Assembly: GCA_009777235.1 (NCBI GenBank)
Contig: WRMH01000010.1
Span: 1-64,000, forward strand
Length of the DNA: 64,000 nucleotides
Reading direction: 5' to 3'
DNA from: Oscillospiraceae bacterium
GTDB taxonomy: Bacteria; Bacillota; Clostridia; Oscillospirales; Oscillospiraceae
Part shown: piece after piece, positions 2,013-21,263 of the stretch
How the letters are laid out: every line of letters begins with the position of its first letter
Position numbering within the stretch: the stretch's first letter is position 1
Position numbers and translations under genes: made by a program
The notes under the pieces: generated by a model
Seen by the model: only the letters and a program-made list of their open reading frames with translations
The model's database searches: none
What the model was told of the DNA's origin: nothing

Positions 2013-2714
2013 TCAGTTAAAAAACAAGGTCAGCGCGTCTAAGGCGTTTGTGTAATTTGATGCTGTCACGGCAATGCAAAAATAGGCTTCGGTAAATAAT
2101 GATATGCCAAGCTCGGTTATGAGGGAGCTGTCCGTTATTCGTATGCCGACGATCCTTTCCGTTTGCTTCTCTTCGTCAGACCCGTAAGCAGCCGAGACGG
2201 TTTCTTCCGTTATACGGCTATACGTATCGGGATATAGCGCTTCAATTTCAGAAAGCGTATTTTCCAAAGGAAGCAGAAATTCAATTTTTGAGTAATTTTC
2301 GAGAGTTTCAAAATCAAGGATAAATATATCTATCGCTCCGGATGAAAGCATTGCCAGCCGCTTATTTTCCTGTATCATCATATAAGAGGGGTCGTCTTCA
2401 AGAAAGAGCGTGACATAGTATTCAACTATCTGCGAGCCTGCGTTTGAAAACAGCTTCTCGCCGATTGTTTGCGCGAGGGCGTGCATATCATCGGACAATA
2501 TATATGACGCGTCCCATTCGATATGCAGACCGATGTTTCGCCTGTTGCCGCAGGTTGTAAGCACAGATACCAAGATTATGACACCGAGGACTCCGCCTAT
2601 GATAAAAAAGCGGTAATAGTCCCAGATATATCCGAGTTTTTCCTTAAACGGCATGTCACTTAGCTTTTGCAGCTCGCTTCGTGACCTGTCCTTGCTGCGG
2701 GGCATATAGTTCAA
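2013..2714 (-). CDS. Hypothetical protein with one membrane helix
   Basis: About 233 residues, family not recognised. A basic N-terminus (MPRSKDRSRSELQKL, then MPFKEKLGYIWDYYRF) precedes one hydrophobic helix at about residues 36-54 (FFIIGGVLGVIILVSVLTT). The remaining 180 residues are soluble and acidic, probably outside the cell. Small proteins with this KEKLxYIWxYYRF-TM layout recur beside Clostridia sugar transporter operons (recollection, not searched), but no role is known to me. The start is uncertain: a TTG at 2714 sits 5 nt after AGGTG, while an ATG at 2705 is farther away. It is the first gene of the leftward operon, behind the promoter at 2754-2782. Confidence 0.6.
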   Translation of the reverse strand: MNYMPRSKDRSRSELQKLSDMPFKEKLGYIWDYYRFFIIGGVLGVIILVSVLTTCGNRRNIGLHIEWDASYILSDDMHALAQTIGEKLFSNAGSQIVEYYVTLFLEDDPSYMMIQENKRLAMLSSGAIDIFILDFETLENYSKIEFLLPLENTLSEIEALYPDTYSRITEETVSAAYGSDEEKQTERIVGIRITDSSLITELGISLFTEAYFCIAVTASNYTNALDALTLFFN

Positions 2715-2730
2715 ATAAGCACCTCACGGT

Positions 2731-2762
2731 AAATATAATTGATTGCTTTTACAATTATATTT
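2731..2762. repeat. 11-bp inverted repeat overlapping leftward promoter
   Basis: Arms AAATATAATTG (2731-2741) and CAATTATATTT (2752-2762) are perfectly complementary around a 10-nt spacer. The right arm covers the -10 box of the leftward promoter and the left arm covers the expected transcript start, so the element looks like an operator for a dimeric repressor. AT-richness makes some chance symmetry possible. Confidence 0.5.
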
Positions 2763-2782
2763 CACAAGAGCGTCACCGTCAA
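2754..2782 (-). promoter_or_regulatory. Sigma-A-type promoter for the leftward xylanase/ThuA operon
   Basis: On the minus strand TTGACG (2782-2777) and TATAAT (2759-2754) are separated by 17 bp. Transcription should start near 2747, about 30 nt before the first gene. It faces away from the promoter at 2830-2858. Confidence 0.7.
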
Positions 2783-2829
2783 GTTTCTTTATTTCTTTCT
2801 TTCGGGCGTATTATTTTTTAGCAAAGATA

Positions 2830-2858
2830 TTGACAATAATGCTGCGGTGCTGTAAATT
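2830..2858 (+). promoter_or_regulatory. Probable promoter for the ABC importer operon
   Basis: A perfect TTGACA (2830-2835) is followed after 17 bp by TAAATT (2853-2858), a 4/6 match to the -10 consensus. The importer gene starts 60 bp downstream with an AAGGTG ribosome site. Confidence 0.55.
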
Positions 2859-2918
2859 ATAGAGGTGGTCAGGCATGACTGCTTACTTTGGTAAAATCAA
2901 ACAGAAAGGTGAAGTATA

Positions 2919-4697
2919 ATGAAAAAAATCCTTGCATTGCTTTTGGCTGTAATTATGAGTGTGGGTATACTCGCAGCCTGCGAAGGAGAGCCAGAGGGCG
3001 CAAAAGGCGGAGATGACCCCGTGACAACGCCTACTCCCGGACCTTCGGGTGAGCAAAAATCAGAAAGACAACTGCTGGCAGAACAGTACGGACTTCCGTG
3101 GACAGACGAAATGGAGTCATGGCAGCCCATATCATTTACCTATTTCAGCCGCAATCCCGGTCAAGTACCGGCAGCGGACAACCCTATCATTGAAATAGTA
3201 AGTAAGATAACGAATGTCACGATCGAATTTGAAATGCTCGTCGGCGACCTCGGCACAAAGCTCGGAACCATGCTTACCGGCGGTGATGTGCCCGACATGA
3301 TATTTGTCGGAGGCGACGCGGGCATAGCTATTGACTCGGGAAAATTTATGCCGATTGACGACCTGATCGAAGAGTATGCGCCAAGACTCCGCGCTCACTA
3401 CGATCCATGGTGGGACCTTATGCGTTATACGGATGGACGCATTTACACAGCCGAAATTTGGAGCACGCCGGTAGGTGAGAGGTATACATTCTGGGATAAC
3501 GCAACCGCGTTTTGGATTCAAAAGGATGTGCTCGACCATTTTGGCTACGCACCGCGCACTCTCGACGAATACTTTGATTTTCTCAGAGAGTATAAAGAGC
3601 TCTACCCGACGATAGACGGTATGCCGACGGTCGCCTTTTCGATACTGCACGATATAAACGGAAAGCGTTACAGCATTGACAACGGCGGATTCTTCCTCGC
3701 CGGGCACGCCAACTGGGGCGGCGCGGTAAACACCGATGGCAGCGGACCGGATGCGGCTATATCTCCTGATGTACATGCCCGTTGGACGAGCGATTTCCAA
3801 TACAAATGGTGGAAGAAATTAAACGAAGAGTTCCACAAGGGCACGTTCAGCCAAGAAACCTTTACACTTTCCGAGAGTGACTATGTCGCGCAAATAGCCA
3901 ACGGCGTTGTGCTTGGCGTATGCGATCAGCAATGGGTCTTTGAGGAAGGCGAAAACACGCTCATCGGCGACCAGCGTTATAATCGCACATATCTGCCTGT
4001 AGGTATAGTATATGACGATTCAATCACGCCTGCCTATTTAGACGACAAATCGGAAAGTTTCACGGGCTCTAACGGTATCAATATCAGCAACACAATCTCC
4101 GACCCCGTAAGGGCTATAAAATACTTAGATTGGATCATTTCCGAAGAGGTTCAAAAATTCCTTTACTGGGGCATTGAGGGCGAGCATTATTTCTACAATG
4201 ACGAAGGCCGTATCGAGCGTCCCCCCGAGCAGCGTGAGCTCCAGCTTGCCACAAGATGGACAACAGACAACCTCGGACGCTTCCTCTTTAACGCAATGCC
4301 TAAGATGCAAGGAACATATCCGTCAGACGGCAACCCGACCGATACGAGCCAGTCTTATGTTGAATGGTACGCATCGCTGACGTCGTATGATAAAGAAATC
4401 TACGAAAAGCTCGGCATCGAGACGCAAATCGGACTTTGGGGACCGATAGGTCAAAGACCGGCATTTTATCCCTATTGGAGCATTACACCGCCGAGAAATT
4501 CCGATGAAGAGTTTGTAAACAATCGAATCGGTGATATTACAAAAGCGCAAATAGCCCTTATGATCGTCGCGGATGAAGATAAGTTTGACGATTTGTGGGA
4601 GAGCTTTGTCGCCGACATACATGCTGTGGACGTATCGGGACTTGAAGCGTATTTTGCGAGCATAGCGCAAACCAGAATAGAAGCCACGGGCGGATAA
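2919..4697 (+). CDS. Sugar ABC transporter substrate-binding lipoprotein (LplA type)
   Basis: 592 residues. A lipoprotein signal peptide (MKKILALLLAVIMSVG, lipobox LAAC with Cys at about residue 20) is followed by an acidic/Pro-Thr linker and a large extracellular solute-binding domain of the family-1, LplA-like size class (about 500-590 aa). It would be anchored outside the membrane and deliver an oligosaccharide to the two permeases encoded next. The LplA/LplB/YtcP organisation together with GH10 and glucuronate genes suggests (methyl)glucurono-xylo-oligosaccharides as ligand; this is inference. It has its own terminator-like hairpin downstream, which usually leaves the binding protein more abundant than the permeases. 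No ATPase subunit is encoded here; such importers normally share an MsmX-type ATPase. Confidence 0.9.
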   Translation: MKKILALLLAVIMSVGILAACEGEPEGAKGGDDPVTTPTPGPSGEQKSERQLLAEQYGLPWTDEMESWQPISFTYFSRNPGQVPAADNPIIEIVSKITNVTIEFEMLVGDLGTKLGTMLTGGDVPDMIFVGGDAGIAIDSGKFMPIDDLIEEYAPRLRAHYDPWWDLMRYTDGRIYTAEIWSTPVGERYTFWDNATAFWIQKDVLDHFGYAPRTLDEYFDFLREYKELYPTIDGMPTVAFSILHDINGKRYSIDNGGFFLAGHANWGGAVNTDGSGPDAAISPDVHARWTSDFQYKWWKKLNEEFHKGTFSQETFTLSESDYVAQIANGVVLGVCDQQWVFEEGENTLIGDQRYNRTYLPVGIVYDDSITPAYLDDKSESFTGSNGINISNTISDPVRAIKYLDWIISEEVQKFLYWGIEGEHYFYNDEGRIERPPEQRELQLATRWTTDNLGRFLFNAMPKMQGTYPSDGNPTDTSQSYVEWYASLTSYDKEIYEKLGIETQIGLWGPIGQRPAFYPYWSITPPRNSDEEFVNNRIGDITKAQIALMIVADEDKFDDLWESFVADIHAVDVSGLEAYFASIAQTRIEATGG

Positions 4698-4710
4698 GAA
4701 CCCGCAGGGA

Positions 4711-4745
4711 GATGGGGCTGATAATTCAGTCAGCCCCATCTTTTT
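4711..4745 (+). terminator. Intrinsic terminator / attenuator inside the importer operon
   Basis: A perfect 11-bp stem, GATGGGGCTGA (4711-4721) with TCAGCCCCATC (4730-4740), has an 8-nt loop and is followed directly by TTTTT. It starts 14 bp after the binding-protein stop codon and lies before the first permease, so partial read-through is expected. Confidence 0.85.
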
Positions 4746-4820
4746 AACATACCGTGCAACATTGCAACATTTACCGCATACATTTAAGGCTCCCAAATAT
4801 GATAAGGGATGGTCATAGAC

Positions 4821-6449
4821 ATGAATGACACAGCAAACAGCGCTATCGCTTCACAAAATGGATTTTTAAATTTTCCAAAAAGATTTTGGGTCACCTTGAC
4901 GGGGTTGGTTGGCATTTTTATCGTATCCATGCTCAATTGGGCGCACGATGATCTAATTTTCCAATTTACCGAATGGAGAGAGCTTTTTCCGGGTATCGAA
5001 TATTTAAGAGATGTGCCTGTAAGATTTGGCCTTGCGGATTTATTGGGGAGCTACCAAAACACCAATCTATATTTTTACTTTGGCGACTTATCGCAATACA
5101 ATATCTTTAAGATCATGTCAATCGTTATAGCCGTACTGCTGGTCTTGTCTTTTGCGACGGTACTTTTCGCGCTCGTTCGCTACCGCTCGAAACATTTTAC
5201 CAAGCTGTGCATACTGGGCTTTAGCCTTTTTGCATTTACGGCACTCTTATACATTGTTTTTACGATGCTGATTTCCACAACGGACACACCGCTCGACACA
5301 TATAAAATCATTATGGCAGTGCTCATAGTGCTGCTTGTAGCGTCATTTTTACTTATGATACCCGTTTTCATACAAAAACGCAAAGACCCGGTAAAATCTC
5401 AAACTGTTTATAAGTTTGCTTTATCGGCTTTTCTGTCCTTATCTTTTATTACCATTACGATGCTGATAATCGAAGCGATGCTCGAAACGATAATTACGGC
5501 AATACCGGTCATAATATTTGTGGCATCGCTTTCCACCATACCTTTTTTACTCGATCCCGCGGAGGTAAAAAGCAAGCGTTTGAGCAGATTTTTACATCAA
5601 AAGGCATTTTTCTATATGATAATACCCATAATGGCATACGTTTTCTTGTTTAGCTATTATCCGCTCAAGGGATGGGAAATGGCTTTTCAGGACGACCCAC
5701 TGTTAAAAGAAACTTCATATATAGGTTTCAAATGGTTTGTGTTCTTATTTACAGAGGGCGAATTTTGGAAGATTATGCGAAATACGCTGGGAATGAGCGT
5801 AATAAATCTCGTGTTGGGATTCACGACGTCTATATTCTTTGCGCTTTTGCTAAATGAAGTGCGGCAAAAATATTTCAAGAGGGTTGTGCAGACAATATCT
5901 TATCTGCCGCATTTTCTGTCGTGGGTTATTGCGGCGGGAATGATCACGCAGTTTTTGATGAGCGACGGCCTGTTAAACCAGATGTTGGGCAGCGATAAGG
6001 TTTGGCTTACCGACGCCGATAATTTTTGGTGGATAGTCGGTTGGGGCAATGTTTGGAAAAGCGTAGGCTGGAACACCATCATCTACCTTGCCGCCATTAC
6101 CTCGATTGACCCGGAGCTTTACGAAAGCGCCGAGCTTGACGGAGCCGGACGGTTTGCGAAAATGATACACATTACGCTGCCCGGCATAAAGTCCACCATA
6201 CTCGTTTTGCTCATAATGAGCATTGGCTGGATACTGAGCGCGGGATATGAAGTGCAGCTTCTTTTGGGTAACACGCTTACTTGGGATAGGGCTGAGACTA
6301 TTGACACCTTTGTCTACCGCTACGGCATACAGGATATGAGGTTCCCGCTCGCTACGGCTCTCGGAATGTTTAAGACGGTAGTAAGCATAATTCTCATCAC
6401 CGGAGCCAACTTTGCCTCTAAGCGTTTTGCTAAAGAGAGCTTGGTATAG
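4821..6449 (+). CDS. Sugar ABC transporter permease (LplB type) with extra N-terminal membrane domain
   Basis: About 542 residues from the ATG at 4821, which has TAAGGGATGG about 8 nt upstream; an ATG at 4809 is also in frame but would overlap that site. The C-terminal half (from about LHQKAFFYMIIPIMAYVFLFSYYPL) is a normal LplB permease of about 290 residues with the ATPase-docking EAA loop, ESAELDGAGRFAKMIHITLPG. Ahead of it lie about 250 residues with roughly six further hydrophobic helices that ordinary LplB proteins lack. The protein would sit in the cytoplasmic membrane and pair with the next permease. The function of the extra domain is unknown. Confidence 0.88.
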   Translation: MNDTANSAIASQNGFLNFPKRFWVTLTGLVGIFIVSMLNWAHDDLIFQFTEWRELFPGIEYLRDVPVRFGLADLLGSYQNTNLYFYFGDLSQYNIFKIMSIVIAVLLVLSFATVLFALVRYRSKHFTKLCILGFSLFAFTALLYIVFTMLISTTDTPLDTYKIIMAVLIVLLVASFLLMIPVFIQKRKDPVKSQTVYKFALSAFLSLSFITITMLIIEAMLETIITAIPVIIFVASLSTIPFLLDPAEVKSKRLSRFLHQKAFFYMIIPIMAYVFLFSYYPLKGWEMAFQDDPLLKETSYIGFKWFVFLFTEGEFWKIMRNTLGMSVINLVLGFTTSIFFALLLNEVRQKYFKRVVQTISYLPHFLSWVIAAGMITQFLMSDGLLNQMLGSDKVWLTDADNFWWIVGWGNVWKSVGWNTIIYLAAITSIDPELYESAELDGAGRFAKMIHITLPGIKSTILVLLIMSIGWILSAGYEVQLLLGNTLTWDRAETIDTFVYRYGIQDMRFPLATALGMFKTVVSIILITGANFASKRFAKESLV

Positions 6450-6462
6450 GAGGGACAGTGAC

Positions 6463-7401
6463 ATGGAAGCAAAAGCAAAAATAGATCAGTCAAAATTCCG
6501 GCAGCGCTTGCCCGACTACATATTCATTTTGTGCAACACAATATTTATGTGCTTCATAATATTGATCATGCTATACCCGTTTGTAAATACGCTTGCCATA
6601 TCCCTAAACGACGCATTAGACAGCGTAAAAGGGGGCATCGGGCTTTTGCCGCGCAAATTCACTCTTGATAACTTCGATCAGGTGTTTAAGAACGCCAGAA
6701 TTCTTACGGCATTTACAAACTCGGTGGGGCGCACTGTCATATCTACCGCCGGAGGAGTGTTTCTTTGTTCGATGGCGGCGTATGTGCTGAGCCGAAAGGA
6801 ATTTATGTGGAATAAATTTGTCACGGTTTTCTTTTTGCTCACGATGTATATCAGCGCCGGTCTTATACCTATGTATATGCTGTACGGAAAACTCAGCCTG
6901 ATCAATAGCTTTAATGTATACTGGATACCCGGTTTGTTTGGAGCTTTTAACATAATCGTTATACGAACCTATATTCAAGGCTTGCCGGACAGCCTTGTCG
7001 AGGCGGCGCGCCTTGACGGGGCGGGGGAATTTCGTATCTTCGCTCAAATTGTTCTGCCAATCTGCAAGCCTGTTTTGGCTACAGTCGGCTTATGGATAGC
7101 GGTTGGAAACTGGAATGATTGGTTTACGACCGCCGTCTATGTTTCCGGTCAAAGAAACATAGAGCAATATACAACGCTTCAGTATGAGCTATATAGCGAG
7201 CTTCAATCTGTCCTTGCGCGGATGGGAGAGCGTCAATCAGAATTTTTGGCGTCGCAGGGCGCGGCGGCAAGGCAAAATACCACTACCGTCTCGGTACGCG
7301 CCGCCACCACTATCGTTGCCGCCCTGCCGATATTGTGCGTATATCCGTTTTTGCAAAAATACTTCGTAAAAGGCGTCCATGTGGGCAGCGTCAAAGGATA
7401 A
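6463..7401 (+). CDS. Sugar ABC transporter permease (YtcP/LplC type)
   Basis: 312 residues from the ATG at 6463, chosen because AGGAGGG lies 10 nt before it; an upstream in-frame start at 6412 would overlap the preceding permease and lacks such a site. Six membrane helices are visible. The EAA docking loop reads VEAARLDGAGEFRIFAQIVLP. The C-terminus PFLQKYFVKGVHVGSVKG is the usual ending of this subfamily. It forms the heterodimeric membrane channel with the preceding permease and starts 13 bp after it. Confidence 0.92.
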   Translation: MEAKAKIDQSKFRQRLPDYIFILCNTIFMCFIILIMLYPFVNTLAISLNDALDSVKGGIGLLPRKFTLDNFDQVFKNARILTAFTNSVGRTVISTAGGVFLCSMAAYVLSRKEFMWNKFVTVFFLLTMYISAGLIPMYMLYGKLSLINSFNVYWIPGLFGAFNIIVIRTYIQGLPDSLVEAARLDGAGEFRIFAQIVLPICKPVLATVGLWIAVGNWNDWFTTAVYVSGQRNIEQYTTLQYELYSELQSVLARMGERQSEFLASQGAAARQNTTTVSVRAATTIVAALPILCVYPFLQKYFVKGVHVGSVKG

Positions 7402-13370: not shown

Positions 13371-13855
13371 TGAGTTGTGAGTACAAAATCGGTCACGGAT
13401 ATGACGCCCATAGGCTCATAGGCGGGCGAAAATGCGTATTATGCGGCGTTGAGATACCTTGCCCGTTCGGGCCGGACGGACATTCCGATGCCGATGTGCC
13501 GATACATGCGCTCATGGATGCTTTGCTCGGGGCTTGCGCACTTGGAGATATCGGAGAACACTATCCGCCATCTGAGCGTGCATGGAAAGATATAAGCAGC
13601 ATGGAGCTGCTTGCCAAGACATATGCGCTTATTTTATCGCATGGCTATTGTGTCGGCAACGTGGATATAACCATCGTGCTTGAAGCCCCGCGTTTATCAG
13701 AGTATATAAGGCAGATGAGAGAGAATATAGCCGCGGTTTTAAAAACCGATGTCGGCACTATCAGCGTCAAGGCGACTACGGAAGAGGGCATGGGTTTTAC
13801 CGGAAGCGGCATGGGCGTTTGCGCCACCGCAGTAGTATGTTTGCGCAAAATATGA
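13367..13855 (+). CDS. ispF: 2-C-methyl-D-erythritol 2,4-cyclodiphosphate synthase
   Basis: 162 residues, the normal size. Metal-binding GHGYDAHRL (D and H of DxH), GHSDADVPIHALMDALLGA and the C-terminal KATTEEGMGFTGSGMG signature are all present. It cyclises CDP-ME-2-phosphate to MEcPP. The last five codons and the stop lie in the left copy of the 21-bp direct repeat that bounds the CRISPR-Cas island. No terminator of its own is evident; the hairpin 19 bp downstream has its U-run on the other strand and belongs to the tracrRNA. Confidence 0.97.
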   Translation: MMSCEYKIGHGYDAHRLIGGRKCVLCGVEIPCPFGPDGHSDADVPIHALMDALLGACALGDIGEHYPPSERAWKDISSMELLAKTYALILSHGYCVGNVDITIVLEAPRLSEYIRQMRENIAAVLKTDVGTISVKATTEEGMGFTGSGMGVCATAVVCLRKI

Positions 13856-13861
13856 TATAAT
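13841..13861 (+). repeat. Left copy of 21-bp direct repeat bounding the CRISPR-Cas island
   Basis: A perfect match over 21 bp (TTGCGCAAAA then TATGATATAAT) to 21243-21263. The left copy contains the last codons and stop of ispF; the right copy carries the extended -10 of cdaA. The match stops abruptly on both sides. It may be a target duplication from island insertion, or recurrence of a promoter-like motif. Confidence 0.85.
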
Positions 13862-13866
13862 TAGAT

Positions 13867-13957
13867 AAAAAAGAGGGCTATCAAAGCCCTGCATACGATT
13901 TCGGATTTACCTTATTTGAACTTGTAGTGTAGTTCCAAAGGGGTATCAAGCCCTTGT
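13867..13957 (-). ncRNA. tracrRNA of the type II-A CRISPR-Cas9 system
   Basis: Read leftward, the transcript begins near 13957. It carries an anti-repeat of 26 nt perfectly complementary to the CRISPR repeat (13949-13924), then AAGTTCAAATAAGG, a nexus-like GGTAAATCCG, and ends in the hairpin AGGGCT/AGCCCT (13890-13874) with six T. Paired with the crRNA repeat, a lower stem GUUUGA/UCAAAU and an upper stem flank a GA/AAGU bulge, the same bulge as in S. pyogenes. The expected length is about 91 nt, with only one hairpin after the nexus. The gene is divergent from the cas operon. Ends are predicted, not measured. Confidence 0.93.
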
Positions 13958-13963
13958 GGATAC

Positions 13964-13992
13964 ACTATAACCTAATGATTGTGAGATGTCAA
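13964..13992 (-). promoter_or_regulatory. Promoter of the tracrRNA
   Basis: On the minus strand TTGACA (13992-13987) and TATAGT (13969-13964) are exactly 17 bp apart. The first purine at the usual distance is the A at 13957, just before the anti-repeat. Confidence 0.88.
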
Positions 13993-14114
13993 GCATTTTT
14001 TGCAATGCTTTTTTTGCGTTTGCGATTTTACGATTTTTGTAATGTTGCAGGATTTTTTGTGTAGCATCTCAAAGCTAAACATTTTGAAAAAGAGAAGAAA
14101 AACGCTATGCAGTA

Positions 14115-14123
14115 TGCTATAAT
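14115..14123 (+). promoter_or_regulatory. Extended -10 promoter ahead of regulator relic
   Basis: TGC followed by TATAAT (14118-14123) is an extended -10 box; no convincing -35 is seen. It could drive the truncated regulator and, by read-through, the cas operon. Confidence 0.4.
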
Positions 14124-14172
14124 GAAAATTGAACATTTTAGATAAACATTCATAATAAATCCGAAGAAAGAA

Positions 14173-14520
14173 TTGATATTATGTGATTCCCCGCCTGAAT
14201 TTGATACTGACGAGGATAGGAATTACTTTATTGTTACGCTGCGGCAGCACGAAGGGTTTAGAACTAATGGTGATGAAAAGAAAAAAATGGATGTCCCTGT
14301 AAATGTCCCTGTAAATGTCCCTGTAAATGTCCCTGTATCTCGTAGGGAGAAACTTAAAGAGATTGTTGCTGACAATCCATCAGTTACTGCGTATGAATTA
14401 GCTGCAATTTTCTCCGTGACAACGAAGACAATCAAGCGAGATCTAATCATGCTTAAAAAAACAGGGCAGTTAAAACGTGTTGGTTCCGATAAAACAGGGC
14501 ATTGGGAGATTGTCGAGTAA
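14173..14520 (+). pseudogene. 5'-truncated AlbA_2/HTH regulator remnant
   Basis: The frame starts at a TTG and encodes 115 residues that match only the tail of the larger 'putative DNA-binding domain / ATP-binding' regulators (AlbA_2 family). That tail consists of PPEFDTDEDRNYFIVTLRQHEGF, a VPVN-repeat linker and a final winged helix (VTAYELAAIFSVTTKTIKRDLIMLKKTGQL). The usual 300-400 N-terminal residues are missing; an in-frame stop lies 30 bp upstream. It therefore looks like debris of a lost gene between the tracrRNA and cas9, although a stand-alone small HTH protein is possible. No ribosome site supports the TTG. Confidence 0.65.
14291..14337 (+). repeat. 12-bp tandem repeat (four copies) in the regulator remnant
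   Basis: ATGTCCCTGTAA is repeated at 14291, 14303, 14315 and 14327 (the last copy lacks one base). In frame it encodes the VPVN linker typical of this regulator family, so copy number can change by slippage without loss of frame. Confidence 0.9.
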
Positions 14521-14711
14521 TCATTGAGCTTGAACTTGACTTTATCGAAACTGTATACGTTTTTAATCGAGCGAATGAGGGAAGCCCGTTTTCGGGCAGG
14601 AAGGCGAGAGGACATCTTAGACGAGTTATATAGGATTTTATGGCTACTCTTACAGCAGAGGGGATATTATCTAAAAGTATAAAATTCATGGAAAAGTAAT
14701 AGGGGGACAAT

Positions 14712-17700
14712 ATGAAAAAATATTTAGGATTGGATGTTGGCACGGAATCAATCGGCTGGGCTTTGACGGATGAAAATTACGAGCTTTTGACTCGGAAAAA
14801 GTCTCCGATGTGGGGCGTACATCTTTTTACGCCTGCCGACAACAGCGACGAAAGGCGCAAATATAGGTGTACCAGGCGGCAGGTCAGGCGGCGCAAATGG
14901 CGCATCCGAATATTGCAAGAGCTGTTCAACGAAGAGATATCAAAGGTTGACGAGGGCTTTTTTGCCCGATTGAAGCTGCAAAAGGAAGGTCTGTTCACCG
15001 AAGGGGATAAAGAGTATTTTTCCGCATACCCTACCATCCATCATTTAATTCGCCATCTTCAAACCACAAAGGAAAAACCTGACATCCGACATATCTATCT
15101 GGCGTGTAGCTATTACATGAAGCATCGCGGACATTTTTATTCCAACATAAAAGTAGATGCGAGCTTCGAGGAACTATTGAAACTGGATGACACGTTTGCT
15201 GAGTTCGCCACTTGTGCGGAAGAGAGATTGGGCATAGTTCTTCAATATGACATCGGCCTGATTGAGTATGCTCTGCAAGAAGGTACTGCGACAAAAACCA
15301 AATCTGCGTTGAGCAAGGCTCTGACGGCGACTTCCGATGATGAGGACAAGCTGAATCATGTCATCAAGCTACTCTCGAACGCCACGGTGAATGTCGGTGA
15401 TTTGTTTTCGCTGGAAGATAATGACAAGAAAATCAAGCTCAAAGATGCCGACTTTGAAACCGACACCATTCATGAGCTGAGGCTTGAGCTTGGCGATGAT
15501 TTTGAGCTATTGGAGAAAGCGAAGCAGGTCATGGACTGGGTGGTTTTGCGTTCGATTTTGAAAGATGAAAAGAGCGTAAATACCCAGAGGCTGTCTTTAT
15601 ACAATTATGTCAAATCAGACAAGGAATTGCGTGGGGCAAAGCTTGACGAGTTCATGAAAGAGCGGCACAAGGAAAACCGCGTAATTCCATATCAGTTGCA
15701 GTGGGCGGATTTTCGCAAGGTACTGGATAATATTGCCCGTTTTTATCCCGCATTAGACACGGTGAAAATAGGTGAGTTGTTCAAGCATAAGATTCCATAC
15801 TATGTCGGTCCTTTGAAAAAGGGCGGGGATTTTGCTTGGGTAGAAAAGAGAGGCGACGAAAAAATCTATCCGTGGAATTTTGACGATATTATTGACAAAG
15901 AAAAAACCCGCGAAGCCTTTATCGGCCGCATGACGGCAAAATGCACATACTTGGTAGGCGAAGATGTATTAGCAAGGGACAGCCTGCTTTATGCAAAATT
16001 CGTGATTTTGAATCAGCTTAACAATCTGCGGTTAAATGGCGAAAAATTGGATATCGGAGTGAAACAACGCTTATATCATGCCATGTACATTGACCAAAAC
16101 GGCACGGTGTCGATTGCGAAGATAGGTAAATGGTTGCGTTCGGAAAACCTAATCGAGGCAAATGCCGCTATTAGCGGGGTTGACACCATTCTACAAGGAA
16201 ACTTGAAAGCATATCACAATTTCAAGTCTTTTTTCGAGGCAAACAAACTGACCCCAAAAGAAGCAGAAGAAATAATCTATCGGCTGACGGTATTTGGCGG
16301 TGAGAAAGGTGAGCTGAAAAATTGGCTATGCTCGTCATTCGAAAAGTTAGACGACGGGGATATAAAGCGCATTCTTCGTTTTAATTACAAAGAATACGGT
16401 CGATTATCGCTAAAGCTTTTGGAAGGCGTTTGCCACGAGGATAGGAGCATCATTCAAATGATGTGGGAAACGAACAATAATTTCATGGAACTATTGTCGG
16501 ACAAATTTACTTTCACCGATAAAATCAATGAAATGAATGATGAAAAAGAAAGCCCAAACAGGGATTTGAATGAATGGCTGGACGAGCATTACATTTCCAA
16601 TCGGGTGAAACGCACGATTTTCAGGAGTCTTGACATCATCGACGAGATAATCGAGATGGAGGGCAAGCCGGATAAAGTCTTTATTGAAATGGCAAGGGGC
16701 GAGGAGGAGAAGAAGCGCACGAGGTCGCGAAAAAAGGAACTGGAGGAACTGCTGACAGGCAACAAGGAACTGTTGGAAGAGTTGAGTCAGTATGATGATG
16801 CCAGCCTGCGGCAAAAGAAATTGTTTCTTTATTTCATGCAAAAAGGCCGTTGTATGTACACAGGGGAGACGATTTCACTTTCCACACTTTTGTCCGACAA
16901 TTGGGATATCGACCATATATGGCCCAGGGCAAAGGTCAAGGATGACAGCATCCGTAATAACCTCGTGCTGGTTGACAAGACCGCCAACGGTGAAAAGGGC
17001 GACAGCTATCCACTTCCTCCCGACATACGGGACAATATGCGCGGGTTTTGGGAGGAACTGAAAGCAAAAGGCAACATTAGTGAGGAAAAATACATCCGAT
17101 TGGTGCGGGCAACTGCTTTTTCGGAAGATGAAATGGTGAATTTCATTAACCGTCAACTGGTCGAAACAAGGCAGTCCACCAAGGCTCTCGCCCAATTGCT
17201 AAAGGAAAAATACGACATTAAGCCGATTTATGTCAAGGCGGGATTAGTGACGGAGTTTAGACAGCAGTATGAGTATTTCAAATGCCGTGAAATCAATGAT
17301 TACCACCACGCCAAGGATGCTTATTTGAACATTGTTTGCGGCAACGTGCATGACTTGCTTTTCAGTAATGTGCGGGTGTTCGTGAGGAAAAGGGATAATT
17401 TTTCGGTCAAACCCGAGGTTCTTTACAGCAAGCGTGACTGGCTGAAGAATGACTGGAAAGAAAACACCCATGGCATAATCAGGCAGACGATGCAAAACAA
17501 TAAGGTGAAGTATACAGAGTTTGCGTTTGAGAATAGAGGTGGTTTGTGGGGGAAAACCCTCGGTCTTGTTCCGCGCAAAGGTGAAGTAGATGGAGCGGGA
17601 AAGCCATATGAGCTGTCCACCTGTTTCTTTGCGTTGATATCCTATCGGCTCAAGGGGCAAATGCTGACACGACTTGTCCCGATATATAATTATAAACTGG

Positions 17701-18287
17701 AGGAGTTTGACAAGGACAAGGCGAATTATTTTGAGAATGTTTATCCGCAGTTGAATGAGAAATTTGTAGGCGAGAATGTCAAGTTCATTCGCACGGTTAA
17801 ATTGAGAAGTGTCGTGACGGAAAAAGGTGTCCGTTATCGGGTAACAGGGAACACGAATATGTCGCACACATATCAGTTGGTGTTGTCGTCAGACATGGAA
17901 GAGCATTTACGCAAGCTGTTAAAAGCTGTTGAAAAAAATGATTACCGCAATATCGAGGTTGGGAAAAATCATATGCTGTTCAAGTCTTTTAAGGACAAGC
18001 TCTCGAGTTCCGTTTATTCGAAGATTAGTTCAATAGCAATGCAGATTGAATGTTTTGACGAGGACGAGTTCGTGGGCTTGGATATAGAAAAACAAACGAC
18101 ATTTTTGAAAAACGCATTAAATCTTTTCACGGCGAATAAAGTATTTGCTGATTTGACATTGATGGGTGGGGTGAAATTAGCGGGAGCCATGAGAATTCCG
18201 TCAGCGGTAGACATCGACTACATCATTGACCAATCCCCAACCGGTTTCCACGAAAGGAAATTCAAAGTGGGAGGTCAAGATTCATGA
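14712..18287 (+). CDS. cas9: Type II-A CRISPR-associated endonuclease Cas9 (1191 aa)
   Basis: RNA-guided double-strand DNA nuclease. RuvC-I is LGLDVGTESIGWAL with D8; an Arg-rich bridge helix follows (RRQVRRRKWRIRILQ, near 58-72). RuvC-II has IEMAR (E659). HNH has DIDHIWPRAKVKDDSIRNN with D734-H735, and RuvC-III has YHHAKDAYL (H865-H866, D869). All catalytic positions are intact. The length lies between compact (about 1050) and S. pyogenes-size (about 1370) II-A enzymes. The C-terminal PAM-interacting domain (about 950-1191) is not assignable by eye, so the PAM is unknown. An AGGGGGAC site precedes the ATG. The stop overlaps cas1 by 4 bp, giving a cas9-cas1-cas2-csn2 operon. Confidence 0.98.
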   Translation: MKKYLGLDVGTESIGWALTDENYELLTRKKSPMWGVHLFTPADNSDERRKYRCTRRQVRRRKWRIRILQELFNEEISKVDEGFFARLKLQKEGLFTEGDKEYFSAYPTIHHLIRHLQTTKEKPDIRHIYLACSYYMKHRGHFYSNIKVDASFEELLKLDDTFAEFATCAEERLGIVLQYDIGLIEYALQEGTATKTKSALSKALTATSDDEDKLNHVIKLLSNATVNVGDLFSLEDNDKKIKLKDADFETDTIHELRLELGDDFELLEKAKQVMDWVVLRSILKDEKSVNTQRLSLYNYVKSDKELRGAKLDEFMKERHKENRVIPYQLQWADFRKVLDNIARFYPALDTVKIGELFKHKIPYYVGPLKKGGDFAWVEKRGDEKIYPWNFDDIIDKEKTREAFIGRMTAKCTYLVGEDVLARDSLLYAKFVILNQLNNLRLNGEKLDIGVKQRLYHAMYIDQNGTVSIAKIGKWLRSENLIEANAAISGVDTILQGNLKAYHNFKSFFEANKLTPKEAEEIIYRLTVFGGEKGELKNWLCSSFEKLDDGDIKRILRFNYKEYGRLSLKLLEGVCHEDRSIIQMMWETNNNFMELLSDKFTFTDKINEMNDEKESPNRDLNEWLDEHYISNRVKRTIFRSLDIIDEIIEMEGKPDKVFIEMARGEEEKKRTRSRKKELEELLTGNKELLEELSQYDDASLRQKKLFLYFMQKGRCMYTGETISLSTLLSDNWDIDHIWPRAKVKDDSIRNNLVLVDKTANGEKGDSYPLPPDIRDNMRGFWEELKAKGNISEEKYIRLVRATAFSEDEMVNFINRQLVETRQSTKALAQLLKEKYDIKPIYVKAGLVTEFRQQYEYFKCREINDYHHAKDAYLNIVCGNVHDLLFSNVRVFVRKRDNFSVKPEVLYSKRDWLKNDWKENTHGIIRQTMQNNKVKYTEFAFENRGGLWGKTLGLVPRKGEVDGAGKPYELSTCFFALISYRLKGQMLTRLVPIYNYKLEEFDKDKANYFENVYPQLNEKFVGENVKFIRTVKLRSVVTEKGVRYRVTGNTNMSHTYQLVLSSDMEEHLRKLLKAVEKNDYRNIEVGKNHMLFKSFKDKLSSSVYSKISSIAMQIECFDEDEFVGLDIEKQTTFLKNALNLFTANKVFADLTLMGGVKLAGAMRIPSAVDIDYIIDQSPTGFHERKFKVGGQDS

Positions 18288-19150
18288 GTTGGCGGACAGT
18301 CGCCATCACAGGCAGGGCGAAGCTTGATTATCGCATGGGGTATATGCTTATCCGCAAGGATACGGAACAGAGGGTATTCCTGGATGATGTCAATGTGCTG
18401 ATTTTGGAAAGCACAGCCATATCGCTGACTACATATCTGCTTAAGGAGCTGGCAAGCAAAAAAGTCAAAACCATTTTTTGCGATGAGTTGCATAATCCCT
18501 ACGGAGAGTTGTCGCCATTTTATAATAACACTTCCTGCACAGCCAACATTGCAGAGCAGATTGCTTGGGAGAAGGTAAGAAAAGATGCGGTGTGGCGGAA
18601 CATTATCAAGGAAAAGATTAAGAATCAAGCAGAGGTCTTGCGCTCCATAGGGGAGTGTGAAAAAGCGGAAATGTTGCAAGCTTATGCGGAGGATGTCAGG
18701 GATGGCGACATATCCAACCGCGAGGGTCATGCGGCTAAGGTGTATTTTAACGCTCTTTTCGGCAACAGTTTTTCCAGAGGACAAGACAATCAGATCAATG
18801 CCGCTCTGAATTATGGCTACGCCCTGATATTGTCAGTATTCAACCGTGAAATTGTGGCGTTTGGTTATCTCACACAGCTTGGTATAAATCACCATAATAC
18901 GTACAATTATTTTAATCTAAGCTGTGACTTAATGGAACCTGTCCGCCCGTTTGTTGATTTATTGGTGAAAACTTCGGACTTCAAAGAGTTTGGCATGACG
19001 GAAAAGCATATAATGCTCGGATTGCTGTCACAGGAAGTGAATGTGAATGGTCAGAAAAATTATTTGACCAATGCAATTTCCGTTTATACGAAAAGCGTTT
19101 TGAACGCAATAAACTCTGAAGATGAAATAAAATACGTGCATTTCTTGTGA
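18284..19150 (+). CDS. cas1: CRISPR integrase Cas1 (type II)
   Basis: 288 residues, the usual size for type II. The start MSWRTVAI resembles the MGWRTVV start of II-A Cas1. The metal-binding residues of the integrase are visible: E147 in REGHAAKVYF, H203/H204 in LGINHHNTYNYF, and E218 in CDLMEPVRPFVD. With Cas2 it forms the complex that inserts new spacers at the leader end of the array; in II-A systems Cas9, tracrRNA and Csn2 also take part. ATGA overlap with cas9 indicates coupled translation. Confidence 0.97.
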   Translation: MSWRTVAITGRAKLDYRMGYMLIRKDTEQRVFLDDVNVLILESTAISLTTYLLKELASKKVKTIFCDELHNPYGELSPFYNNTSCTANIAEQIAWEKVRKDAVWRNIIKEKIKNQAEVLRSIGECEKAEMLQAYAEDVRDGDISNREGHAAKVYFNALFGNSFSRGQDNQINAALNYGYALILSVFNREIVAFGYLTQLGINHHNTYNYFNLSCDLMEPVRPFVDLLVKTSDFKEFGMTEKHIMLGLLSQEVNVNGQKNYLTNAISVYTKSVLNAINSEDEIKYVHFL

Positions 19151-19159
19151 GGAATGAAA

Positions 19160-19480
19160 GTGAGTTATCGTTTTATGCGTGTGATGGTCATGTTTGACCT
19201 GCCGACCGTGACGGCTGAAGACAAATGCAGTTACCGAATGTTTAGGAAGAAGCTTATAAAGGATGGTTTTTTGATGATGCAAGAGAGTATATACGTCAAA
19301 ATAGCCATAAACCCTGCCGCCGGTGAAGGCATCATCAACAGAGTTGAGAAATATAAGCCCAAAAAAGGCATCATTCAAGTGCTGACTGTCACAGAAAAGC
19401 AGTTTGAAAGGATGCGCTTTATAGTCGGTGAGCCAAGCGGCGATATTGTAAGCTCTGCAGAAAGGCTAATGATATTATGA
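19160..19480 (+). CDS. cas2: CRISPR-associated Cas2 (type II)
   Basis: 106 residues from a GTG at 19160, chosen because GAGG lies 7 nt before it and because the resulting MSYRFMRVMVMFDLP matches the MSYRYMR start usual for II-A Cas2; an ATG at 19154 would abut the ribosome site. The ferredoxin-like fold begins with the strand ending in the conserved Asp of MFDLP. Cas2 is the structural dimer of the Cas1-Cas2 integrase. Its stop overlaps csn2 by 4 bp. Confidence 0.95.
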   Translation: MSYRFMRVMVMFDLPTVTAEDKCSYRMFRKKLIKDGFLMMQESIYVKIAINPAAGEGIINRVEKYKPKKGIIQVLTVTEKQFERMRFIVGEPSGDIVSSAERLMIL

Positions 19481-20145
19481 GGTTGATTATTCCTGATATT
19501 GACAAATACTTTGATTTTGATAATCAAGTGGTGAATCGTTTGGTCATAGAGAGTCCGTTTTTGTGGCGCAAGGTTTTACAATCTTTCAGAAATCAGTTTG
19601 AGCGGGGGTTTGAATATGCAAGGGCTTATGACGGAACGACAGAATTGAATTTCACAGCAAATGCGGAAATCATATACTCGCCGATTGATATAAATGCAAA
19701 CCGGAGCAGGCTATTGACGAAGTTATATAAGGCTTTGACCGTTGATGGTATAAGCGGCGAGCAGTTAGAAAAAACATACTCTTTGAAACGGGATATCCGA
19801 AATTACTTTGAACAGTTTCTTTGCGATTATGATTTTGACTTAGTGTACAATGATGATTTCGATATGACAAGCCTGTTTAAAGTGATCGGGATCAGGTTTA
19901 ACGAAGCATCAAACGATGTGCTTAATAACTTACTGGAGTATATGCTTTGTGTTCAGACCTTTGACGGAGACAAAGTATTCATACTAATTGGGCTTAGTGA
20001 TTATATGAGCAGTACAGAGAAAGAGAAATTTCATGAAACTGTTTTGGCTAAAGAAGTAAAACTTTTCTTGTTGGACAGAGCCTTGTATGAAAGAAGCAGA
20101 TTAGAGAAAATAGTTGTAATAGATGATGATTTGTGCGAGATTTAG
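19477..20145 (+). CDS. csn2: Adaptation protein Csn2 (defines subtype II-A)
   Basis: 222 residues, the short Csn2 class like that of S. pyogenes (about 220). Family features are the N-terminal MRLIIPDIDKYFDFD, the middle YSLKRDIRNYFEQFL helix region and the ending KVFILIGLSDYMSSTE ... VVIDDDLCEI. Csn2 forms a ring-shaped tetramer that slides on DNA ends during spacer acquisition. Its presence makes the locus II-A. The leader begins directly after the stop. Confidence 0.92.
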   Translation: MRLIIPDIDKYFDFDNQVVNRLVIESPFLWRKVLQSFRNQFERGFEYARAYDGTTELNFTANAEIIYSPIDINANRSRLLTKLYKALTVDGISGEQLEKTYSLKRDIRNYFEQFLCDYDFDLVYNDDFDMTSLFKVIGIRFNEASNDVLNNLLEYMLCVQTFDGDKVFILIGLSDYMSSTEKEKFHETVLAKEVKLFLLDRALYERSRLEKIVVIDDDLCEI

Positions 20146-20275
20146 CTGGAAATAGCGGCACAACTGTAGTATAATATGAGTGAAGGAGGAAATACATATG
20201 AGCTATTTTCAATTTGCAGATCTTATCAATCTGCCCTCAATGTTCACAGTGATTTTGGGTATTTGTGAATTTGAG
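20146..20275 (+). promoter_or_regulatory. CRISPR leader with ATTTGAG anchoring sequence
   Basis: 130 bp between the csn2 stop and the first repeat. The leader ends in ATTTGAG (20269-20275) directly against repeat 1, identical to the leader-anchoring sequence that guides Cas1-Cas2 integration in streptococcal II-A arrays (established knowledge). It also holds the array promoter and a small open frame. New spacers are expected at the repeat-1 side. Confidence 0.88.
20147..20175 (+). promoter_or_regulatory. Pre-crRNA promoter in the leader
   Basis: TGGAAA (20147-20152) and a perfect TATAAT (20170-20175) are 17 bp apart. Transcription would start near 20182, about 94 nt before the first repeat. 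Confidence 0.65.
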
Positions 20276-20281
20276 GTTTGA
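20198..20281 (+). CDS. Possible 27-residue leader ORF
   Basis: An ATG at 20198 follows AAGGAGG (20183-20189) by 8 nt, as good a ribosome site as any in the window. The frame (MSYFQFADLINLPSMF..., ending ...CEFEV) runs through the ATTTGAG element and stops at TGA inside repeat 1. No family is recognised. It may be a real leader peptide, a relic of a gene interrupted by the array, or chance. Because its last codons are fixed by the leader and repeat DNA, selection on the peptide end is not implied. Confidence 0.3.
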   Translation: MSYFQFADLINLPSMFTVILGICEFEV

Positions 20282-21037
20282 GAGTAGTGTAGTTCCAAAG
20301 GGGTATCAAACTATGTGTTGGACGATGAAAAACAATGCTCCGTTTGAGAGTAGTGTAGTTCCAAAGGGGTATCAAACTATCAAAACCATAATGCCTGTGT
20401 GTCATCAGTTTGAGAGTAGTGTAGTTCCAAAGGGGTATCAAACAAACAACAACGCCTATAGGAAATATAATAAGTTTGAGAGTAGTGTAGTTCCAAAGGG
20501 GTATCAAACTGTGCGGTAATCGTCGCGTTCAACATCGTTGTTTGAGAGTAGTGTAGTTCCAAAGGGGTATCAAACAACGACGCGACCGATACCGATATGG
20601 AGGGTGTTTGAGAGTAGTGTAGTTCCAAAGGGGTATCAAACTCTCCCTGTACTTCTTATTCGACACTCATGTTTGAGAGTAGTGTAGTTCCAAAGGGGTA
20701 TCAAACAGGCACGGTGACACTAAAAGTGATGTGGGGTGTTTGAGAGTAGTGTAGTTCCAAAGGGGTATCAAACCTTGCGTTTAGCTTTGCCCTACCAACT
20801 TTTGTTTGAGAGTAGTGTAGTTCCAAAGGGGTATCAAACCACCGCCGCCTATACGGACAGTAATTGTAGTTTGAGAGTAGTGTAGTTCCAAAGGGGTATC
20901 AAACCTATGTAACAGTTGCAGCATATTACCAATCGTTTGAGAGTAGTGTAGTTCCAAAGGGGTATCAAACCTGAAACAACGCTAACCAAATACAGGACCA
21001 AGTTTGAGAGTAGTGTAGTTCCAAAGGGGTATCAAAC
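20276..21037 (+). CRISPR. Type II-A CRISPR array, 12 repeats and 11 spacers
   Basis: Twelve identical 36-bp repeats (GTTTGAGAGTAG ... GGGGTATCAAAC) start at 20276, 20342, 20408, 20474, 20540, 20606, 20671, 20738, 20804, 20869, 20935 and 21002. Spacers are 29-31 bp (30,30,30,30,30,29,31,30,29,30,31) and all differ. Even the last, leader-distal repeat shows no decay. Orientation follows from the leader position, the downstream place in the cas operon and complementarity to the tracrRNA. The repeat and anti-repeat share 26 contiguous positions. Confidence 0.99.
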
Positions 21038-21242: not shown

Positions 21243-21263
21243 TTGCGCAAAATATGATATAAT
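21243..21263 (+). repeat. Right copy of 21-bp direct repeat, with cdaA extended -10
   Basis: Identical over 21 bp to 13841-13861. It ends in TGA-TATAAT (21255-21263), an extended -10 box well placed to transcribe cdaA. If the island arose by insertion, this copy would be the original cdaA promoter or the duplicated ispF end. Confidence 0.8.

Follow-up and report, generated by a model that had tools for sequence, protein, structure and literature searches.

A type II-A CRISPR-Cas9 locus of an Oscillospiraceae bacterium with a short tracrRNA and a large-clade Cas9 lacking REC1 segments

The clustered regularly interspaced short palindromic repeat (CRISPR) locus considered here lies within positions 1 to 64,000 of contig WRMH01000010.1 (assembly GCA_009777235.1) of an Oscillospiraceae bacterium; this whole stretch of 64,000 nucleotides (nt) is called the window below. 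It is a type II-A locus whose Cas9 has 1191 amino acids (aa), and the question that it raises is how an enzyme of this size came about and whether it can still serve an immune system. Cas9 sizes are bimodal around 1100 and 1375 aa (PMC7606464), and 1191 aa therefore falls between the modes. Here, we report that much of the missing length of this protein lies in REC1 and that its trans-activating CRISPR RNA (tracrRNA) is also short. We consider it somewhat probable that the locus provides functional type II-A adaptive immunity with an effector trimmed in evolution; by descent, we assign it to type II-A and to the large Cas9 clade, and its architecture would be new.

The window Cas9 aligns over its full length with the large clade that includes SpCas9 (Streptococcus pyogenes) and FrCas9 (Faecalibaculum rodentium), and the RuvC and HNH residues, Cas9_REC and Cas9_PI are all present. 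The alignment held the window Cas9 and 119 relatives, with some genomes present twice through two collections; ten candidates had been dropped for no usable long frame (L006, L045, L047, L048, L076, L089, L119, L126, L136 and L187), and a further step on the relatives set aside five rows. Segments were compared in 116 relatives, near-duplicates included (L108, L122 and L088 were left out), and these measure 1303-1405 aa. Identity of the window Cas9 to the relatives is 28-39% across the alignment, with none above 39%; shorter local segments reach 48% across 300 residues. The best solved relative, FrCas9 (PDB 9jwk/9jwn), is 29-30% identical, and the original prediction made from this DNA was thus right to set the enzyme apart from characterized ones. 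Compared with SpCas9, whose reference sequence was taken from vector pCAGO, the window Cas9 has at least three separate in-frame losses, which map as follows.

14712 to 18287, plus strand: cas9, encoding a large-clade type II-A Cas9 of 1191 aa (TIGR01865, 751.5 bits)
14973 to 15005, plus strand: cas9 codons 88-98, loss site in the repeat-interacting region; SpCas9 110-124 without counterpart
15618 to 15677, plus strand: cas9 codons 303-322, loss site in REC1; SpCas9 332-339, 342-363 and 374-400 without counterpart
17538 to 17579, plus strand: cas9 codons 943-956, shortened phosphate-lock loop region; SpCas9 1107-1115 without counterpart

In the REC1 segment that interacts with the anti-repeat (SpCas9 312-409), about 57-75 residues are missing: the interval corresponding to SpCas9 325-407 holds 24 residues in the window Cas9, 81 in SpCas9 and 78-126 (median 99) in the 116 relatives. 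FrCas9, with 1372 residues, has this segment, and the alignment skips FrCas9 317 to 423 where the window Cas9 runs from 286 to 314. In the genome searches, most full-length relatives were matched as two pieces, split near residues 285-320 of the window Cas9. The intervals at the other two sites are also short, with 15 residues for SpCas9 101-129 (27 in SpCas9, 22-35 in the relatives) and 11 for SpCas9 1103-1122 (18 and 14-29, respectively); the confidence of the structure model is low at window residues 945-966. Further gaps lie at SpCas9 32-43, at 940-951, within 1021-1073 and in the PI domain. Between SpCas9 125 and 331 no segment of at least four residues is missing, and a region of the size of REC2 is kept. 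Seven SpCas9 residues, S104, F105, R115, H116, F351, Y359 and D364, touch the guide duplex, and at all of these positions the window Cas9 has another residue or a gap; by contrast, it retains L101, K163, Y325 and R403, and it has lysine in place of R340. Since SpCas9, the outgroup, has the segments, their loss would have occurred on the branch of the window Cas9.

Two simpler causes of the small size were ruled out. The domain that interacts with the protospacer adjacent motif (PAM), which the original prediction could not recognize, is a clear Pfam match (Cas9_PI, residues 969-1182, E 6.2e-29), and its absence can therefore not be the cause. A sequencing frame error, the hazard that the same prediction had named for the cas genes, is ruled out for cas9: the losses are separate and in frame, a single open frame runs through 1191 codons with no stop or frameshift, and there is no left-over DNA corresponding to the missing segment. 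The description of this Cas9 as mid-sized holds for its length; as to meaning, it is a large-clade Cas9 minus REC1 segments and not an intermediate class.

The guide RNA has also become short. The anti-repeat has the same polarity as the repeats, and the tracrRNA is therefore read from the minus strand, an orientation likewise reported for the FrCas9 locus (PMC8931148). Its parts are the following.

13867 to 13957, minus strand: tracrRNA, with the anti-repeat at 13951-13916; the start was inferred from the promoter match
13913 to 13902, minus strand: nexus of the tracrRNA, AAGGTAAATCCG
13890 to 13874, minus strand: hairpin of the terminator, with its T-run at 13872-13867 (T6)
13964 to 13992, minus strand: match to a promoter consensus, TTGACA-17-TATAGT, at 11 of 12 positions (a consensus match only)

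One hairpin, that of the terminator, lies 3' of the nexus, and none is found between the two, whereas the guide RNA of SpCas9 has two hairpins after the nexus and 63 of the 68 large-clade relatives have three, terminator included (two chance pattern hits were left out of this count). The remaining five relatives are L123, L158, L161, L168 and L176; in all of these except L161, the folded stretch seems by eye to have been cut short at a T-run that precedes the terminator. Measured between the lower-stem end and the T-run, the window tracrRNA has 41 nt compared with 46-86 nt (median 70) in the 59 relatives that also had a recognized array, which makes it the shortest tail of the 60 compared; the shortest tails among the relatives (46 and 47 nt) also seem, by eye, to have been cut short at such an earlier T-run. 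The nexus GG-UAAA-UCC and the 4-nt bulge AAGU are kept, where conservation of the bulge among the relatives is partly built in, as their tracrRNAs were located by a pattern that fixes part of it ([AG][AG]GTT). Thus, the resemblance to the S. pyogenes guide RNA that had been predicted extends to the bulge of the repeat:anti-repeat duplex and to the nexus, and ends with the single hairpin after the nexus. The anti-repeat is predicted to pair with the repeat at 27 of 28 upper-stem positions, in addition to the 4-nt bulge, nexus and terminator. In the same set of 60, the duplex is the most stable at -51.4 kcal/mol (relatives: median -34.0, lowest -50.6), and it has 26 contiguous upper-stem pairs, against a median of 12 and a maximum of 28. 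A search of Rfam gave no match at gathering scores.

A short guide RNA and a smaller protein are also features of the compact SaCas9-like enzymes of clade V, in which a nexus and one larger hairpin follow the duplex (PMC7606464). In this respect the window system is alike, but it keeps the bulge and a region of the size of REC2, and its Cas9 aligns over its full length with the large clade. Its REC1 loss looks separate, SaCas9 having been aligned through structure-database matches only.

The type II-A gene set is complete, with cas9, cas1, cas2 and csn2 overlapping or almost touching in what is, by content and order only, one operon, and each of the four genes scored above the curated cut-off of its family.

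18284 to 19150, plus strand: cas1 of type II (TIGR03639, 293.3 bits)
19154 to 19480, plus strand: cas2 (TIGR01573, 64.5 bits)
19477 to 20145, plus strand: csn2, encoding 222 aa (TIGR01866, 143.4 bits)
20236 to 20275, plus strand: end of the leader, ...ATTTGAG adjoining repeat 1
20276 to 21037, plus strand: CRISPR array of 12 identical 36-nt repeats and 11 spacers of 29-31 nt

The last repeat is identical to the other 11, and ATTTGAG is the commonest leader end among related arrays (44 of 66). The catalytic residues of the window Cas9 pair one to one with those of SpCas9: D8 with D10, E659 with E762, D734/H735 with D839/H840, N759 with N863, H865/H866 with H982/H983 and D869 with D986. The original prediction had placed tracrRNA, cas genes, repeats and spacers where we find them, and had called the system complete, frame-intact and conserved at its catalytic residues, all of which holds. 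Its word "intact" is right for frames and residues; it does not equal "active", as the window Cas9 lacks parts of regions that are described as essential for SpCas9 to cleave.

The spacers, which the original prediction had proposed to search together with their flanks, point to a target and to a candidate PAM. Seed scans of viral contigs were made for five of the 11 spacers (4, 5, 7, 9 and 11), with no scan of their own for spacers 1, 2, 3, 6, 8 and 10. A 21-nt piece of spacer 5 matched one 6704-bp IMG/VR contig (L215), on which the whole spacer then matched at 30/30 positions. Spacers 1, 2 and 6, found through this same contig, match it at 28/30, 28/30 and 26/29 positions (two, two and three mismatches), while in 100 shuffles per spacer the mismatches never fell below nine. 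Together with the size of 6.7 kb, a protein matching the Zot-like and M13 pI morphogenesis families points to an inovirus, that is, a filamentous-phage-like contig; two other frames of it had no PHROG match. Judging from these matches, the immune system is directed at least partly at small filamentous phages. This is not new, since inoviruses are already known as targets of several CRISPR types (PMC6813254).

On L215, the 3' flanks are CAAAG (spacer 5), CAAAG (spacer 1), TGAAA (spacer 2) and TAAAC (spacer 6), so that NRAA follows the protospacer on the spacer-identical strand at all four sites; the four 5' flanks have nothing obvious in common. NRAA occurs at 5.7% of the positions of L215, which gives about 1e-5 for four of four before allowing for a motif chosen afterwards. 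Every spacer in the array is followed by GTTT, which does not fit the motif. We regard NRAA as a candidate PAM; it differs from the NNTA of FrCas9 and the NGG of SpCas9. An adenine dinucleotide is shared with the NAAN PAM of SmacCas9, another II-A enzyme (PMC7235249), whose adenines stand at positions 2-3 rather than 3-4; this comparison covers the PAM.

Other matches were less informative. Seeds of spacer 7 hit two viral contigs, and over the full spacer these agree at 20/31 and 21/31 positions, which is chance; spacer 3 matches the chromosome of a relative at 25/30, about the chance expectation, with no fitting flank. In viral contigs the seeds of spacers 4, 9 and 11 had no match, a search of phage and plasmid collections with E up to 10 gave weak matches only, and in the host genome there were only short, chance-level ones. 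Five related phage contigs (L225-L229) and two prophage loci (L230 and L231) had no spacer match of six mismatches or fewer. Homologues of the Zot/pI-like protein of L215 occur in two of 19 genomes of the genus, and the host, itself one of the 19, is not among the two. These inovirus-type Zot/pI-like genes, at the loci L232 (G214:C80) and L233 (G008:C41), are 57% and 53% identical to that of L215, and the loci are perhaps prophages; neither had a spacer match of seven mismatches or fewer.

How could such a Cas9 work? In the reading that we prefer, a functional system with a trimmed effector, Cas1-Cas2-Csn2 would take up spacers of about 30 bp and tracrRNA-loaded Cas9 would choose the PAM, with several spacers coming from small filamentous phages, relatives of which occur in genomes of the genus to which this bacterium belongs. 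The CRISPR RNA (crRNA) and the short tracrRNA would pair and guide Cas9 to double-stranded DNA followed by NRAA, where the intact HNH and RuvC domains would cut. In place of the usual REC1 grip, what holds the guide scaffold would be the repeat:anti-repeat duplex, which is very stable, together with the nexus and the WED/PI side. We infer that the window Cas9 still cuts and that the protein and RNA losses evolved together. The more specific proposal, to which we give somewhat less than even credence, is a naturally minimized, active Cas9 ribonucleoprotein in which protein and tracrRNA shortened together and the guide is held without the REC1 anti-repeat grip on which SpCas9 depends, through the unusually stable duplex and the nexus, with NRAA as the PAM.

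The conservation pattern bears on this reading and on its main rival, decay of the effector, in which in-frame deletions in REC1, the phosphate-lock region and the tracrRNA left Cas9 inactive or weak, the array is the fossil of a full-length system and the reading frames are merely not broken yet. At columns conserved to at least 95%, the window Cas9 departs at none of 64 in the nuclease domains (RuvC and HNH) and at 17 of 85 in the bridge helix, REC and WED/PI (12 substitutions and five gap columns). For 101 other non-redundant sequences, 97 of 252 departures fall in the nuclease domains (Fisher p 4.5e-4, with domain limits set by us and columns inside one deletion not being independent events; the test left out SpCas9, L185 and L186, and 115 rows were reduced to 102 non-redundant ones). 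We read this as continued constraint on cutting while the RNA-facing side was probably reshaped, which falls short of proving activity. Decay would also have to accommodate at least three separate losses that all kept the frame, the retained promoter and terminator matches of the tracrRNA and an array with 12 of 12 repeats identical, the last one included. On balance, we regard decay as unlikely, though as a serious contender.

Several observations weigh against a functional trimmed system, and some of them speak directly for decay. The deleted regions overlap those described in SpCas9 as absolutely essential for cleavage (97-150 and 312-409; PMC6478683). When deletions were scanned across dCas9, the large ones that it tolerated lay in REC2, REC3, HNH and RuvC but not in REC1, and small ones were tolerated in general, though not in the phosphate-lock loop or the bridge helix (PMC8476515). 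The terminal branch of the window Cas9 (1.10) is the longest of 105, the next being 0.94, and it carries the 17 departures at conserved columns; its root-to-tip distance of 3.16 is not outside that of the other sequences, which have a median of 2.83 and reach 3.27. The guide RNA keeps the GA/AAGU bulge though the residues thought to read it are gone. The PAM is drawn from four sites, three of them with mismatches, and was read after seeing them. The best match of spacer 4, in the phage record MT837297 from human faeces (L212, 1501-1530), has 26/30 positions with mismatches near its 3' end and the flank TTTGG, which is not NRAA; it may be a chance match or a diverged target. The spacers could also predate the deletions. 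Finally, no second member with the trimmed architecture was seen, in genome contigs among the best 80 of 558 related stretches.

The four sites that share NRAA, and the key role of tracr-loaded Cas9 in marking prespacers with the right PAM in II-A systems (PMC12216489), suggest that a PAM-reading Cas9 took part in spacer acquisition, with or without the present deletions. The same two points favour an enzyme that has lost or reduced target cleavage and is kept, for example, for PAM selection in acquisition or for repression of transcription, and the losses do fall in guide-binding parts; such a role would, however, not demand the nuclease residues and the 64 conserved nuclease columns, all of which are kept, and we consider it improbable. 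An ordinary II-A system, in which REC1 and tracrRNA are free to differ in length and nothing special is to be read into it, has in its favour the standard gene set and the existence of compact Cas9 enzymes with two-hairpin guide RNAs (clade V, PMC7606464), but with a REC1 interval far outside the range of the clade and the shortest tail of 60 it is slightly more improbable still.

Seven Cas9 genome searches (1441 genome-searches with repeats, in samples of larger groups) gave no second trimmed large-clade Cas9; the 119 relatives were assessed from their alignment and all others from match tables. Scans of genome and viral contigs with the single protein found no close Cas9 relative. Related stretches in genome contigs numbered 558, of which the best 80 were kept, and tblastn of plasmids and phages reached at most 34% identity. 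In the parts of the literature available, no natural large-clade Cas9 without the REC1 duplex-binding segments is described, which is weak evidence given that most subscription journals fell outside the scope. As a separate observation, MT835488 (L211), labelled Bacteriophage sp., holds a full-length Cas9 gene at 2501-6538 with an open frame of 1370 codons, which is either phage-borne or a host fragment mislabelled as phage.

The surroundings of the locus bear on how it arrived, and it is flanked by an exact direct repeat.

13841 to 13861, plus strand: left copy of the 21-bp direct repeat, in the 3' end of ispF
21243 to 21263, plus strand: right copy of the 21-bp direct repeat, upstream of cdaA

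These two copies are the only exact ones in the assembled genome; such matches reached at most 15 bp at 28 other loci whose flanks were long enough, except for a repeat-derived one of 20 bp in one locus. In a genome of the same genus, G176 (L055), cdaA directly follows ispF, which represents an empty site. Of the 19 other cdaA loci in the genus, 12 have a match to ispF nearby, a count that includes G176. From the flanking repeat and the empty site, we take the locus to have been inserted as one unit; none of the five proteins searched was recognized as an integrase. Elsewhere in G176, a contig (L208, G176:C47, 7777-8013) ends in a II-A-like array with the repeat GTTTGAGAGTAGTGTAATTTCAAAGGGCAGCAAAAC, which adjoins AbiE-like genes (named by eye); the G176 assembly has no Cas9 match. 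Within the window locus, a helix-turn-helix (HTH) gene fragment (DeoR/HTH_11) with 12-nt VNVP-coding repeats lies at 14173-14520, between the tracrRNA and cas9, and is perhaps the remnant of a larger regulator. Because of it, the distance from the anti-repeat to cas9 is 802 nt, compared with 63-229 nt in 66 relatives.

This locus offers a natural test of how little a Cas9 needs, as both Cas9 and its guide RNA have lost parts that are kept in related systems. If the enzyme is active, a natural Cas9 can do without regions that are called indispensable in SpCas9, REC2, which SpCas9 tolerates losing, having been kept while parts of REC1 were lost; the contacts that Cas9 needs to recognize its guide RNA would then become directly testable. 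Such an enzyme would be smaller than SpCas9 by about 180 residues, and would combine a short guide RNA with an A-rich PAM. If it is inactive, a Cas9 that has lost guide-binding parts while keeping every conserved nuclease position examined would be informative too.

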